Shown: positions 2,560 through 6,664 of the stretch, piece after piece
Position numbering within the stretch: position 1 is the first letter of the stretch
How the letters are laid out: each line of letters begins with the position of its first letter
Source of the DNA: an uncultured Lachnospiraceae bacterium
Lineage (GTDB): Bacteria; Bacillota; Clostridia; Lachnospirales; Lachnospiraceae
Direction: 5' to 3'
NCBI GenBank assembly: GCA_947564735.1
Contig: CANOEC010000013.1
Coordinates: 1-64,000 of the forward strand
Length of the DNA stretch: 64,000 bases
The notes under the pieces: generated by a model
The model's database searches: none
What the model was told of the DNA's origin: nothing
The model's input: only the letters and a program-made list of their open reading frames with translations
Translations under genes and position numbers: made by a program

Positions 2560-2895
2560 CTATTTCTGTTCTTTTGCTATTCCTTGATACATTGTACCCC
2601 ATTCAAACATTGAGTTGATAATTGGCCGCATGGTGTCACCTAATTCACTTAAAGCATATTCCACACGAACAGGCACTTCCGGATATACAGTACGGGAAAT
2701 GATGCCGTCTTCTTCCATAGAACGCAGATTATCTGTCAAAACCCGCTGGCTGATTCCGGGAATGTCCTTTTGCAATTCGTTAAACCGCCAAGGTCTGTCC
2801 AAAAGCCTTTGTACAATAAAGATTTTCCACTTGTTTCCGATAAGCATGAGCGTGGTTGCAACAGGACATGCCGGAAGCTCGTCTTTCGTCAACAT
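2560..2895 (-). CDS. HxlR-family transcriptional regulator
   Basis: A 111-residue winged-helix regulator. The family core is clear: CPVATTLMLIGNKWK at the N-terminus, FNELQKDIPGISQRVLTDNL as recognition helix region, and a wing near VRVEYALSELG. An N-terminal Cys (Cys10) sits where the HxlR proteins YodB and HypR carry their redox-sensing Cys, so it may sense quinones, aldehydes or disulfide stress; that is inference. The ATG at 2895 was chosen because GGAGGG lies 7 bases upstream; a longer TTG-started reading has no such site. It is divergent from the Cys-rich peptide gene, so it probably controls that operon and itself through the palindromes between them. Confidence 0.9.
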   Translation of the reverse strand: MLTKDELPACPVATTLMLIGNKWKIFIVQRLLDRPWRFNELQKDIPGISQRVLTDNLRSMEEDGIISRTVYPEVPVRVEYALSELGDTMRPIINSMFEWGTMYQGIAKEQK

Positions 2896-2933
2896 AATAG
2901 CACCCTCCAAAAAAGTATATTACATTCATATTT

Positions 2934-3015
2934 GCACTAAGTAAGAAAAAGATCACTACATAATAAAATAGTGCGTACTTTTCTTTCTGATTGCTGCAAT
3001 CTATACTGAGTATAG
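2934..3015. promoter_or_regulatory. Divergent control region with operator-like palindromes
   Basis: Between the HxlR gene and the peptide gene lie CACTA-N10-TAGTG (2954-2973), a further GCACTA half-site (2934-2939) and a perfect palindrome CTATACT-G-AGTATAG (3001-3015). The last contains a TATACT (3002-3007) that could be the -10 box of the peptide operon. This fits direct control by the adjacent HxlR dimer; the assignment is inferred from position and symmetry. Confidence 0.55.
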
Positions 3016-3030
3016 ACCAAAGAGGTCATC

Positions 3031-3049
3031 CTGTCAAAGCATTTGACAG
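3031..3049 (+). promoter_or_regulatory. Perfect 8-bp hairpin in the peptide operon leader
   Basis: CTGTCAAA-GCA-TTTGACAG is a perfect inverted repeat 31 bases before the peptide start codon. There is no T run after it, so it is not an ordinary terminator. It could be a second operator or a 5' stabilising hairpin. Confidence 0.5.
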
Positions 3050-3079
3050 CAAAAATCAAGGAGATAGGAGGCAACTATT

Positions 3080-3220
3080 ATGAGTAATCTTGAAAATGTG
3101 GCTGCATTTGCGGCATCGTCCTGCGGTTCGGCATGTGGCGCAGGGGACCCGAAGCCGGAAGAAAAGCCGGCTTCTGCCTGCGGTTCGGCATGTGGCGCAG
3201 CGGACCCGAAATCGAAATAA
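3080..3220 (+). CDS. Cys-rich precursor peptide with CGSACGA repeats (ACGX-type RiPP)
   Basis: A 46-residue peptide, short enough to be missed by gene finders. AGGAGG lies 8 bases before the ATG. Residues 1-14 are a Cys-free, Ala-rich leader (MSNLENVAAFAASS). The rest is two blocks, each CGSACGA (residues 15-21 and 34-40) followed by a DPK-containing segment, so all four Cys occur as C-x3-C pairs. The blocks come from a 33-base DNA duplication (3121-3153 and 3178-3210) differing at one base. A radical SAM/SPASM enzyme follows at once. I recall NCBI/TIGRFAM models for an 'ACGX-repeat peptide' and an 'ACGX system' radical SAM enzyme, which this pair resembles; I could not check it. The product is probably a thioether or otherwise Cys-modified peptide; its function is unknown. 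Confidence 0.85.
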   Translation: MSNLENVAAFAASSCGSACGAGDPKPEEKPASACGSACGAADPKSK

Positions 3221-3288
3221 ATTTCGATTCATCAGAAACATATTGTGTCAAAACGGGCATGGGCACATGAATTTTTCGTGTGTCCATG
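3210..3288 (+). promoter_or_regulatory. Two stem-loops between precursor and modifying-enzyme genes
   Basis: AATCGAAAT/ATTTCGATT (3210-3229) is a perfect 9-bp stem overlapping the peptide stop codon. CATGGGCACA/TGTGTCCATG (3258-3288) forms a 10-bp stem with one G-U pair and an 11-base loop. Such structures between a RiPP precursor and its enzyme commonly set a higher precursor level through partial termination or mRNA protection. That role is inferred. Confidence 0.45.
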
Positions 3289-3314
3289 ATGATACCAAGA
3301 GGAGGAATACCAAG

Positions 3315-4373
3315 ATGAAACCATATTTTGCCTTTCAATGGCATATTACAGACGAGTGCGACCAAAGGTGTAAGCATTGCTATATTTTTTCCGGAGATAA
3401 TGATATTTGCCTAAAGCAGATGAAATACGAGGAAATGGAAAAAGTCGTTTCAAGCTGTATGGATATGTGTGAAAGGCTGGAACGCACTCCCTATTTCTAT
3501 ATTACGGGTGGCGATCCGATTTTGCACAAGGATTTTTGGAAACTTTGTGAGCTGTTGAAAAAACATGGCATTACTTTTGGGATTCTGGGAAATCCGTTTC
3601 ATTTAACAGATGAGGTCTGCAAAAGACTGTATGACTATGGTTGCAGAAAGTATCAGTTATCTTTGGACGGAATGAGGGAAACACATGATAAGTTTAGGAA
3701 GCCCGGATCTTTTGACACTACGATAGAAAAAATTGATTGTATCAAAAAGGCGGGTATGTATCTTGCAATCATGTCCACCGTATCCCTCGCCAATAAAGAT
3801 GAGTTTCCTGATATGATAGACTTGGTAGTGGAAAAAGATGTAGATGTGTTTGCGTTCGGTCGGTACTGTCCTACAAGCGGTCATGAAAGCAAACGGAATT
3901 ATCAAGATAATTTTTTTCAACAATATCATATTCCCCCATTAGTGTACAGGTCGTTTTTAGAGAAGTGCTGGGCGAAATATGAGCAGTACAAGGACAGACA
4001 TACCACGTTCCAGTTAAAAGACCATTTATGGACGTTATTCTTGTATGAAAAAGGTATATTTAAGATACCCGAAAATGCGGATAAGAAAATGATTTATGAT
4101 GGTTGTCATCTCGCGATTAGTCATATGACAATCCTTCCGACAGGCGATGTTTATGCCTGCCGTAGAATGGAAAGTAAAATCGGAAATGTATTTGATAGCT
4201 CTATGTATGATCTATTTATGAGTGCGGACATGGAGAAGTATCGTGATTTTGATAAATTTGAGAAGTGCAGCAAATGTGAGCTTAGAGGATTTTGCAGAGG
4301 GTGTCCGGCAGTGACCTATGGCTATACCGGAAATATGTACGCTCCGGATCCTCAATGCTGGAAGGATATCTGA
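3315..4373 (+). CDS. Radical SAM/SPASM peptide maturase (ACGX-type)
   Basis: A 352-residue enzyme that should use a [4Fe-4S] cluster and S-adenosylmethionine to modify the adjacent Cys-rich peptide. The SAM cluster motif C-x3-C-x2-C is at residues 15-22 (CDQRCKHC), the GGDP motif follows near residue 75, and a C-terminal SPASM region carries the Cys set DGCHL, YACRR, CSKCELRGFCRGC and PQCW for auxiliary clusters. The core begins almost at residue 1, so no N-terminal peptide-recognition (RRE/PqqD-like) domain is present. The ATG at 3315 has AGGAGG 9 bases upstream. A longer reading of this frame, from about 3090, would run through the peptide gene in another frame and is rejected. It is part of the peptide operon. 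Confidence 0.9.
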   Translation: MKPYFAFQWHITDECDQRCKHCYIFSGDNDICLKQMKYEEMEKVVSSCMDMCERLERTPYFYITGGDPILHKDFWKLCELLKKHGITFGILGNPFHLTDEVCKRLYDYGCRKYQLSLDGMRETHDKFRKPGSFDTTIEKIDCIKKAGMYLAIMSTVSLANKDEFPDMIDLVVEKDVDVFAFGRYCPTSGHESKRNYQDNFFQQYHIPPLVYRSFLEKCWAKYEQYKDRHTTFQLKDHLWTLFLYEKGIFKIPENADKKMIYDGCHLAISHMTILPTGDVYACRRMESKIGNVFDSSMYDLFMSADMEKYRDFDKFEKCSKCELRGFCRGCPAVTYGYTGNMYAPDPQCWKDI

Positions 4374-4428
4374 TGTATGGCGGACATCGGATTTGTACCG
4401 ATTGAAATGAAATGGAGATGGTTTAAGC

Positions 4429-5007
4429 ATGGATATTTTGGATTTGATGAAAGAGCGCAGGGCAATCCGAAAATACACAGATAGGCAGATTGCAAGGGAA
4501 GATTTGGAAAAAATCATAGAAGCCGGATTATATGCGCCAAACGCAGGCGGCGGACAGCGGGCAAGGATTGTGGCTGTCCATAATAAGGAATTAGCGAAAA
4601 AGATTGGAAAACTCAATCTGGCACATTTTGACCGTAATAAACTTGCCGGAGGATATGTTTCTTCTGAACAGCCGAGCAATATTGATGACCCGACGATAAA
4701 AAATGGCTTTTATGGCGCACCTGCCGTATGCGTTATTTTTGGATCAAAAAATTTTCTATACAGTATTCCCGATGCCTTCTGCTGTGCTGAAAATATGGTG
4801 CTTGAAGCCACCAATTTAGGGATTGCATCCTGCATTATTGCAAGGGGTGAAGAAACATTTGATAATGAGGTTGGTAAGGCGTTACTGGAAGAGTGGAATG
4901 TTCCCGATACAGATATCGCAAGGTGTTTCGTGATATTAGGATATTGTAATGGCGACTACCCGCAGAGCAAGCCAAGAAAAGCCGGACGATATTTGATTGT
5001 GGAATAA
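4429..5007 (+). CDS. Nitroreductase family protein
   Basis: A 192-residue FMN-dependent oxidoreductase of the nitroreductase fold. The N-terminus LMKERRAIRKYTDRQ is the family's FMN-phosphate contact, followed by LYAPNAGGGQ and later GIASCIIARGE. Substrates cannot be read from sequence; quinones, nitroaromatics or a step in peptide maturation are all possible. It starts 55 bases after the radical SAM gene, on the same strand and with no terminator between, so it probably belongs to the peptide operon. Nitroreductase genes are known targets of YodB/HypR-type HxlR regulators, which agrees with the HxlR gene at the head of this module. Confidence 0.88.
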   Translation: MDILDLMKERRAIRKYTDRQIAREDLEKIIEAGLYAPNAGGGQRARIVAVHNKELAKKIGKLNLAHFDRNKLAGGYVSSEQPSNIDDPTIKNGFYGAPAVCVIFGSKNFLYSIPDAFCCAENMVLEATNLGIASCIIARGEETFDNEVGKALLEEWNVPDTDIARCFVILGYCNGDYPQSKPRKAGRYLIVE

Positions 5008-5020
5008 ATTAGGGAGATAA

Positions 5021-5140
5021 GGTTGAAAGAATTGCATTCTTTCAAGCAGATTTATTTGGTTTTCGCGACAGTTTGTGCTGGCGCCATTGGCATCAGACCT
5101 AAACATCGCAGGCGGAGAAAGGAGCGTGGTTATAAAAATG
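5021..5140 (+). repeat. Dispersed leader element, copy A
   Basis: This stretch matches 45760-45860. Both begin with a hairpin (GAAAGAAT/ATTCTTTC), share GTTTGTGCTG and AAACATCGCAGG, and end at a start codon preceded by TATAAA. Copy A carries about 25 extra bases after the hairpin. The flanking genes differ entirely between copies, so this is a dispersed element rather than a duplicated gene. Reading from TTG at 5023 gives MKELHSF as in copy B, but the frame then diverges. Confidence 0.75.
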
Positions 5141-5438
5141 GATGCACAGACCTGTTTAAAAAAATTACAATATGTGGGAGTATTGAATTTTGCAACAGTC
5201 GATAAATATGCAAAACCGCAGATACGGAATATCAGCGCAATACATTATGAGCAGCAGGCTATGTATTTCTTTACGGCAAGGGGAAAATCCTTTTGCGAAG
5301 AATTGCTTGCGTCCTCAAAGGTGCATTGTATCCGGTCGTCCGTATCATATTACGCAGGAGTATTGTTTACATTGTGGAAATTGTTTTGAAAAATGTCCTG
5401 TTGGCGCTGTCAAGAATAGGGAGGATATAAAGGGATGA
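5138..5438 (+). pseudogene. PNPOx-like flavoprotein/ferredoxin, internally deleted
   Basis: The first part, from ATG 5138, reads as the start of a pyridoxamine-5'-phosphate-oxidase-like flavoprotein (KLQYVGVLNFATVDKY, ALYFFTARGK-like MYFFTARGK). Around 5320-5330 the frame breaks. The match continues in another frame with HITQEYCLHCGNCFEKCP, the C-terminal 4Fe-4S half of the PNPOx-ferredoxin fusion proteins common in Clostridia. About half of the normal protein (the middle, including the first Fe-S motif) is missing. A programmed frameshift would not restore that, so the gene is a relic. It ends in an ATGA-type overlap with the sirtuin gene. Confidence 0.8.
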
Positions 5439-6331
5439 TTGATAGAATGGCTCTAGGAATAACGGCTTCAAGGCATAGAAATCCTTTAACAAAAGAAATG
5501 AAAAAGTCAGAAAAGATTGAACGGTTATGTACTATGCTAGAAAAAGCAGACGCTATACTTATTGGTGCGGGTGCAGGACTTTCTACTTCTGCCGGATTTA
5601 CTTATAGTGGTGAGCGTTTTCAGAAATATTTTAGTGACTTTATTGAAAAATACCATTTCCAAAATATGTACGAGGGCGGTTTTTATCCCTTTGAGAGTCT
5701 GGAAGAACATTGGGCGTATTGGAGCAGATATATTTATATCAATCGCTATATGGATGCACCGAAACCTGTGTATGAGAAGCTGTTTGACTTAGTAAAGGAT
5801 AAGGAGTATTTTGTTCTCACGACAAACGTGGACCACTGCTTTCAAAAGGCAGGATTTGCAAAAGAAAGGCTGTTTTATACACAGGGGGATTATGGACTTT
5901 TTCAATGCAGCGAGCCATGCCATGACAGGACCTATGACAACGAAGAAACGATTAAAAAAATGGTTGAGCAGCAAAAGGACATGAGAATCCCGACAGAGCT
6001 TATCCCGCATTGTCCTATATGTAATAAAGCAATGACTATGAATTTGCGGGCGGATAACACTTTTGTGCAGGACAGTGGCTGGGAACTTCATGCGGGTTAC
6101 TATGAGCAATTTCTAAATGAATATGGACAAGGCAACCTGTTATTTTTAGAATTAGGCGTAGGGTATAATACTCCGGGGATTATTAAATATCCTTTTTGGA
6201 AGATAACAGCGGACAACCCGAAAGCGGTTTACGCCTGCATTAATTATGGGGAGGCGGTGTGTCCGAAAGAAATTGAGAAACAGTCGATTTGTATAGAGGG
6301 GGATATTGGGGAAGTGTTACAGTTATTATAA
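5435..6331 (+). CDS. Divergent SIR2-family protein (class M-like sirtuin)
   Basis: A 298-residue NAD-dependent enzyme. The NAD-binding GAGAGLSTSAGF lies near residue 45, the catalytic His is in TTNVDHCF, and a zinc knuckle is formed by CSEPC and CPIC. The canonical GIPDFR motif is absent, and the region LELGVGYNTPGIIKYPFW resembles class M sirtuins (SirTM), which ADP-ribosylate a lipoylated GcvH-like protein. Those usually sit beside a macrodomain, GcvH-L and lipoate ligase; none is seen here, so the partner is unknown. GGGAGG precedes the ATG at 5435; an internal Met (MKKSEKIERL, 5498) is an alternative start. It follows the broken PNPOx gene directly. Confidence 0.85.
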   Translation: MIDRMALGITASRHRNPLTKEMKKSEKIERLCTMLEKADAILIGAGAGLSTSAGFTYSGERFQKYFSDFIEKYHFQNMYEGGFYPFESLEEHWAYWSRYIYINRYMDAPKPVYEKLFDLVKDKEYFVLTTNVDHCFQKAGFAKERLFYTQGDYGLFQCSEPCHDRTYDNEETIKKMVEQQKDMRIPTELIPHCPICNKAMTMNLRADNTFVQDSGWELHAGYYEQFLNEYGQGNLLFLELGVGYNTPGIIKYPFWKITADNPKAVYACINYGEAVCPKEIEKQSICIEGDIGEVLQLL

Positions 6332-6463: not shown

Positions 6464-6535
6464 GGCTCCATGGTCAAGCGGTTAAGACATCGCCCTTTCA
6501 CGGCGGTAACACGGGTTCGATTCCCGTTGGAGTCA
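6464..6535 (+). tRNA. tRNA-Glu (TTC)
   Basis: A complete 72-base cloverleaf. Acceptor GGCTCCA pairs with TGGAGTC with one G-T pair, the anticodon loop is CTTTCAC (TTC), the T arm is ACGGG-TTCGATT-CCCGT, and the discriminator is A. CCA is not encoded. Confidence 0.97.
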
Positions 6536-6593: not shown

Positions 6594-6664
6594 GGTGACT
6601 TAGCCAAGTGGTAAGGCCCCGGTCTGCAACACCGTTATCGCCGGTTCAAATCCGGCAGTCACCT
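6594..6664 (+). tRNA. tRNA-Cys (GCA)
   Basis: A complete 71-base tRNA. Acceptor GGTGACT/AGTCACC is perfect, the anticodon loop is TCTGCAA (GCA), and the discriminator is T, the known identity base of tRNA-Cys. It is transcribed with tRNA-Glu 58 bases upstream. Confidence 0.97.

Follow-up and report, generated by a model that had tools for sequence, protein, structure and literature searches.

An ACGX-repeat peptide operon beside a putative redox regulator and a class M sirtuin in a Lachnospiraceae genome

The window, i.e., the whole stretch analysed, comprises the first 64,000 nucleotides of contig CANOEC010000013.1 (assembly GCA_947564735.1), from the 4.5 Mb genome of an uncultured Lachnospiraceae bacterium. 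It holds a row of genes for a short cysteine-repeat peptide of the ACGX type, a radical SAM/SPASM (radical S-adenosylmethionine) enzyme, a nitroreductase and a class M sirtuin (SirTM), with a divergent HxlR gene in front (Table 1). From sequence comparisons, this row is read as an HxlR-controlled redox or electrophile operon whose peptide would be intracellular, probably thioether-linked and co-regulated with SirTM, a reading to which we give a probability of about 55%.

When electrophile or redox stress sets in, a thiol-sensing HxlR-type protein would, as proposed, turn on the divergent operon through the site GTGCGTACTT by the -35 region. The product would be a short cysteine-repeat peptide that stays in the cell, in which the dedicated enzyme would probably form thioethers between a Cys and the Asp at the fourth position after it, as in ranthipeptide chemistry; the leading Cys of a double block would stay free or be linked otherwise. 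The flavin and iron-sulfur oxidoreductases made with it would probably swap electrons with the peptide or share its stress. SirTM proteins attach ADP-ribose to proteins and zinc-macrodomain (Zn-Macro) proteins remove it, and the pair, under the same promoter site, would add reversible ADP-ribosylation to the response.

A preliminary description of positions 2560 to 5007 had proposed an ACGX-type peptide module with a nitroreductase under a redox-type HxlR regulator. Its observations are confirmed and its interpretation is partly supported: the genes it listed are present, but the module it delimited stops early, as a flavin-ferredoxin gene remnant and the SirTM gene follow on the same strand, and it overlooked the SirTM and/or Zn-Macro neighbours found in 62 of the 93 loci compared.

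These 93 loci are the window and 92 others (L038-L063, L092-L157), 91 of them with distinct enzyme DNA. They were chosen by enzyme match, so the SPASM enzyme is in every locus by selection, and weak, partial or stop-broken members (e.g., L123, L126, L127, L128, L137) are included in the counts. At the E-values used, the enzyme was matched in 37 of 299 family genomes, 10 of 398 phylum genomes and 21 of 78 genus genomes (window genome included in each), and a GTDB contig scan gave 26 loci. The closest named loci belong to Lachnospiraceae metagenome-assembled genomes, at 82-91% enzyme identity. Genes are longest-open-reading-frame calls, with approximate starts, and some small genes may have escaped detection.

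The peptide and its enzyme

The 46-residue peptide carries the two CGSACGA blocks reported previously, each with an Asp four residues past its second Cys. It scores below the TIGR04341 cut-off and the enzyme above that of TIGR04340, while two relatives with three blocks reach 35.8 and 39.5 bits (cut-off 28); the assignment to the ACGX type is upheld. A Cys-Gly repeat peptide stands ahead of the enzyme in 84 of the 93 loci. The nine misses include one-block forms (L115, L125) and a locus with only 15 bases upstream (L128); in L063 and L050 other DNA occupies the peptide's position upstream of the enzyme.

Across 80 distinct peptides, with one to seven blocks each and a short conserved leader (MALSN-type or MSNLENVAAFA), Gly follows 473 of 483 Cys. 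Of the 483 Cys, 240 have Asp and 194 have another Cys four positions later (434 together, 90%); in 500 shuffles these two residues accounted for 13% on average and 18% at most. According to an excerpt of PMC9413430, PapB cross-links Cys-X3-Asp/Glu as thioethers, and the Cys-X3-Asp spacing favours Cys-Asp thioethers in the ACGX peptide. The preliminary description had offered thioethers or metal chelation; the spacing speaks for the former, and metal binding is kept below as a lesser possibility.

The enzyme contains only the Pfam domains Radical_SAM and SPASM, and 14 residues stand before the first Cys of its CxxxCxxC motif. Taken together, these indicate that it has no N-terminal RRE (recognition element of ribosomally synthesized and post-translationally modified peptides, RiPPs), as had been described. 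The motif and seven further Cys (264, 282, 318, 321, 327, 330, 348) are invariant in 31 aligned sequences. Its AlphaFold model has a mean confidence (pLDDT, predicted local distance difference test) of 85.8, and the nearest structures are SuiB, anSME and SkfB.

Evidence on where the peptide acts comes from L105:6423-7169 (-), which encodes a 249-residue flavoredoxin-like protein with an ACGX peptide as its tail. Flavin_Reduct (PF01613) covers residues 13-144 (3.1e-12), the PDB flavoredoxin 2d5m is matched at 1.2e-27, and TIGR04341 covers residues 199-249 with 33.7 bits (cut-off 28). By its family, we take the flavoredoxin-like protein to be a cytosolic electron-transfer protein, and the fusion supports a role of the ACGX peptide inside the cell.

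Regulator and promoter site

The window HxlR protein has a single Cys, which corresponds in alignment to the N-terminal Cys of YybR/HypR from B. subtilis (PDB 4a5m), and the protein's structure matches are PDB 7kd3 and 4a5m. A CPV Cys is found in 64 of 68 HxlR-cluster genes. Judged by these alignments, the protein has the HxlR fold with the conserved N-terminal Cys of DUF24 redox regulators, in agreement with the divergent, Cys-bearing HxlR gene of the preliminary description. An excerpt of PMC6943732 states that DUF24 regulators sense via this Cys and that they govern genes for nitroreductases and flavin reductases. The HypR/YodB/CatR regulons of B. subtilis presented there share with the window the N-terminal redox Cys and the flavin/nitroreductase genes, and HypR is an activator; they differ in that the window HxlR has one Cys only.

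The site GTGCGTACTT occurs exactly, and always in one orientation, ahead of the peptide in 73 of the 93 loci (72 of the 87 with at least 600 bases upstream). Of 59 HxlR-peptide stretches, 53 contain it; no non-overlapping 10-mer is present in more than 25. The distance from the site to the start of a -10-like hexamer is 21 nt in 59 of the 73 loci (counted without ties) and 20 nt in 13; outside these, the most frequent distance is 26 nt (16 loci). This spacing places GTGCGTACTT beside the -35 region, where an activator site would lie, and we infer that HxlR may bind there. In the window genome an 11-base form of the site occurs twice (in the operon and at C1:43078), and the backward control has one occurrence.

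Other repeats are present in this region. Positions 3001-3015 form a perfect inverted repeat, CTATACT-G-AGTATAG, that spans the -10-like hexamer, and close relatives have similar repeats of the TATACT-A-AGTATA type. A second inverted repeat, AGTTAC-N6-8-GTAACT, lies between HxlR and the peptide in L054, L055, L058, L139, L143, L144 and others. This repeat is perhaps a second operator; the sequence GTTACAAAAA is found in 25 of the 59 HxlR-peptide stretches.

Conserved neighbours and the sirtuin

A divergent HxlR gene (within 1.4 kb) is found in 58 of the 93 loci, a nitroreductase or ferredoxin-nitroreductase gene in 63, a PNPOx/4Fe-4S gene in 41, SirTM in 58 and Zn-Macro in 25, nitroreductase and PNPOx/4Fe-4S genes being counted apart after one mixed cluster was split. 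In the same order, the counts are 47, 48, 31, 46 and 17 for the 69 loci flanked by no less than 1.3 kb upstream and 4 kb downstream, and 33, 30, 20, 29 and 15 for the 48 centroids at 90% enzyme identity; SirTM or Zn-Macro is present in 48 and 30, respectively. The co-occurrence of peptide and enzyme in related genomes, to which the preliminary description had tied its proposal, is thus conserved, as are the HxlR and nitroreductase neighbours that it had suggested comparing, and the conserved neighbourhood goes beyond what it had expected. The window genome has in total 5 HxlR, 2 nitroreductase and 1 macrodomain genes, and these low totals make adjacency by chance unlikely. Among nine loci of other families (L129-L137), SirTM and Zn-Macro occur in L131, L132 and L136, and Zn-Macro in L133.

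Table 1. Features of the ACGX operon in the window.
Feature	Position	Strand	Details
HxlR (DUF24) regulator	2560..2895	-	ATG 2895, end 2560; PF01638 2.7e-31 (Pfam)
Promoter site GTGCGTACTT	2971..2980	+	Conserved among ACGX loci
-10-like hexamer TATACT	3002..3007	+	Starts 21 nt after GTGCGTACTT
ACGX-repeat precursor peptide, 46 aa	3080..3220	+	TIGR04341 26.9 bits (cut-off 28)
Radical SAM/SPASM enzyme, ACGX system	3315..4373	+	TIGR04340 549.1 bits (cut-off 400)
Nitroreductase-family flavoprotein	4429..5007	+	PF00881 1.7e-24; PDB 3ek3
PNPOx/4Fe-4S flavin-ferredoxin gene remnant	~5138-5438	+	Front part out of frame with rear part; middle absent
Class M sirtuin (SirTM)	5435..6331	+	PDB 5a3a SpySirTM 3.5e-74

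In the PNPOx/4Fe-4S remnant, 63 amino acids are 86% identical to intact copies, and Fer4 lies in the rear frame; many relatives, e.g., L043, have an intact copy after the nitroreductase. An apparent zinc-type dehydrogenase gene, rather than a second radical SAM gene, follows the enzyme in nine loci and is Pfam-confirmed in the four scanned. Outside the operon, a glycoside hydrolase family 42 beta-galactosidase gene lies ahead of it at 452-2497, and genes for tRNA-Glu (6464-6535) and tRNA-Cys (6594-6664) directly follow SirTM.

The window sirtuin is best matched by SpySirTM (5a3a), followed by a fused macrodomain-sirtuin (8rsn). In alignment to 5a3a, QG replaces the sirtuin HG, i.e., Gln stands for the catalytic His, and Asn118, Gln137 and Arg192 of SpySirTM are kept, as counted on the alignment; an excerpt of PMC4518038 reports that SpySirTM needs the Asn and the Arg. 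The same Gln is found by pattern in 46 of 53 ACGX-linked SirTM rows, and by eye in the other 7. The protein belongs to the class M sirtuins, with predicted ADP-ribosyltransferase activity. The same excerpt lists SirTMs for Lachnospiraceae and identifies the protein targeted in S. aureus and S. pyogenes as lipoyl-GcvH-L. According to an excerpt of a 2024 paper (PMC11490716), other SirTM targets are unknown.

The window genome's sole macrodomain gene lies on another contig (L209:6184-7008); its nearest structures are 8rsi and 5kiv, and it passes NF003163 (protein-ADP-ribose hydrolase). A second, partial SirTM match is present at G000:C75:7220-7525 (L210; 55% over ~100 residues), and L210 also has an HxlR gene of ~40% identity.

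SirTM is matched in 93 of 200 family genomes, and in 21 of 24 ACGX genomes versus 71 of 175 others (Fisher p 1.3e-5, for genomes with handles below G200, taken as shared by both scans, window genome excluded). It is near the enzyme in 14 of those 21 genomes, by coordinates read by eye. Twenty SirTM loci, the best-scoring from genomes without an ACGX match, were used for comparison. They have HxlR in 10, Zn-Macro in 18, PNPOx/4Fe-4S in 7 and nitroreductase in 2 cases, and no ACGX-like peptide was found in any of the 20. In six of them GTGCGTACTT or its reverse stands ahead of the Zn-Macro/SirTM genes, at 10 positions (overlapping pairs counted twice); 20 simple shuffles gave 0.7 on average. Neither GcvH-L nor LplA2 was seen beside these SirTM genes among the 9 scanned of 21 listed neighbours.

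In a quickly built tree with 53 SirTMs linked to ACGX and 20 from peptide-free loci, no clade peculiar to ACGX loci is seen. The ACGX label needs 11 changes, at least 6 of them forced by starred branches; label shuffles give a mean of 17.8, and 0 of 500 are as low as 11. L111, L142, L143, L145 and L146 form a divergent ACGX-linked branch, and divergent peptide-free SirTMs are under-sampled, since best-scoring rows were used. A label that is clustered and yet changes 11 times suggests that the pairing of SirTM with ACGX was gained or lost several times. This is more consistent with both having been drawn repeatedly into a single stress regulon than with a SirTM dedicated to the peptide.

Alternatives and comparison with known systems

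Several points weigh against the proposed reading. The structures nearest the enzyme model are enzymes of different chemistry, and the PapB model NF047865 matches the enzyme at 68.9 bits (cut-off 340). Exact GTGCGTACTT is absent in 15 of the 87 loci with at least 600 bp upstream; it is half palindromic, and position is what ties it to HxlR. The flavoredoxin fusion is found in one locus of 93. Finally, 10 centroids at 70% enzyme identity leave HxlR in 3, nitroreductase in 5, PNPOx/4Fe-4S in 4, Zn-Macro in 2, SirTM in 4 and either of the last two in 5. The centroid counts suggest a linkage to the neighbours that is firm within the main lineage but weaker in outlying members.

A tentative and rather unlikely alternative is that the matured peptide is itself the SirTM target, taking ADP-ribose on Asp, Glu or Cys, which Zn-Macro removes, in the place of lipoyl-GcvH-L. 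The parallel anatomy favours it, as excerpts of PMC4518038 and PMC11490716 present a small protein, a dedicated modifying enzyme, flavin oxidoreductases, Zn-Macro and SirTM; so do the enrichment of SirTM in ACGX genomes and the window genome, where no GcvH match was found at E 0.001. GcvH matches occur in 22 of 40 hand-picked ACGX genomes (17 above the Pfam cut-off, none on the ACGX contig), all partial, with at most 67 of 122 positions and a best score of 26.8 bits. However, SirTM is also in many peptide-free genomes (the 71 of 175), 21 of the 69 well-flanked loci have the peptide without SirTM or Zn-Macro nearby, the ACGX-linked SirTMs are not one clade, and a cross-link explains the conserved Asp equally well. 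In a related proposal, which seems doubtful, the matured peptide would be the carrier of a second type of SirTM system, working within the cell, together with flavin and ferredoxin-type reductases, as a redox or electrophile carrier. It is likewise speculative that ADP-ribosylation by SirTM would switch this carrier off and Zn-Macro switch it on, replacing lipoyl-GcvH-L.

It is also possible, if rather unlikely, that the peptide, unlinked or modified in some other way, serves as a thiol or metal buffer whose Cys bind metal or scavenge electrophiles directly. Its Cys-rich and Asp-rich composition and the redox-type regulator would suit such a role, but the strict Cys-X3-Cys/Asp spacing, the near-constant Cys-Gly and the dedicated SPASM enzyme suggest cross-linking. 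Export or cleavage of the product, to act outside the cell like many RiPPs, is very improbable: the short conserved leader and the general habit of radical SAM peptides speak for it, but the flavoredoxin fusion lowers its odds, and among the 25 largest neighbour clusters none stood out as a protease or exporter apart from an apparent ABC exporter (by eye), found in 18 loci at scattered distances rather than at a constant position. These two points support the absence of adjacent genes of this kind noted in the preliminary description and the role inside the cell that it had offered as a possibility.

Besides the DUF24 regulons above, the operon can be compared with three known systems. In the NCBIfam ACGX system (TIGR04340, TIGR04341) the enzyme above cut-off and the peptide repeat are the same, and relatives' peptides pass the cut-off, but the entries name no function, regulator or partner. 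No described function of ACGX, TIGR04340 or TIGR04341 was found in openly licensed PMC text, so that absence from print is unproven; the excerpt of PMC9062424 does not mention ACG or TIGR043. The freyrasin-type ranthipeptides made by PapB (excerpt of PMC9413430) also have repeated Cys-X3-Asp and a SPASM radical SAM enzyme, but the ACGX enzyme is far below the PapB cut-off, its peptides have Cys-X3-Cys-X3-Asp double blocks, and their setting is probably intracellular and redox-related. The extended SirTM operon of S. aureus and S. pyogenes (excerpt of PMC4518038) shares the SirTM class, the Zn-Macro of relatives, flavin oxidoreductases and a stress setting. It differs in that no GcvH-L or LplA2 was seen here (LplA2 was not searched as a family), the ACGX peptide/radical SAM pair and HxlR stand in their stead, and the window genome's Zn-Macro lies elsewhere.

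While the ACGX pair was already known as a family, the promoter site beside HxlR, the SirTM/Zn-Macro partnership and the flavoredoxin fusion are new here; no paper joining sirtuin, macrodomain and radical SAM was found in openly licensed PMC text. NCBIfam names this radical SAM peptide family but assigns it no function; the results place it in a functional setting for the first time, and its product would be unusual among RiPPs in acting within the cell. The ACGX peptide is also a concrete, testable candidate for a SirTM substrate, in a bacterium without a GcvH match.

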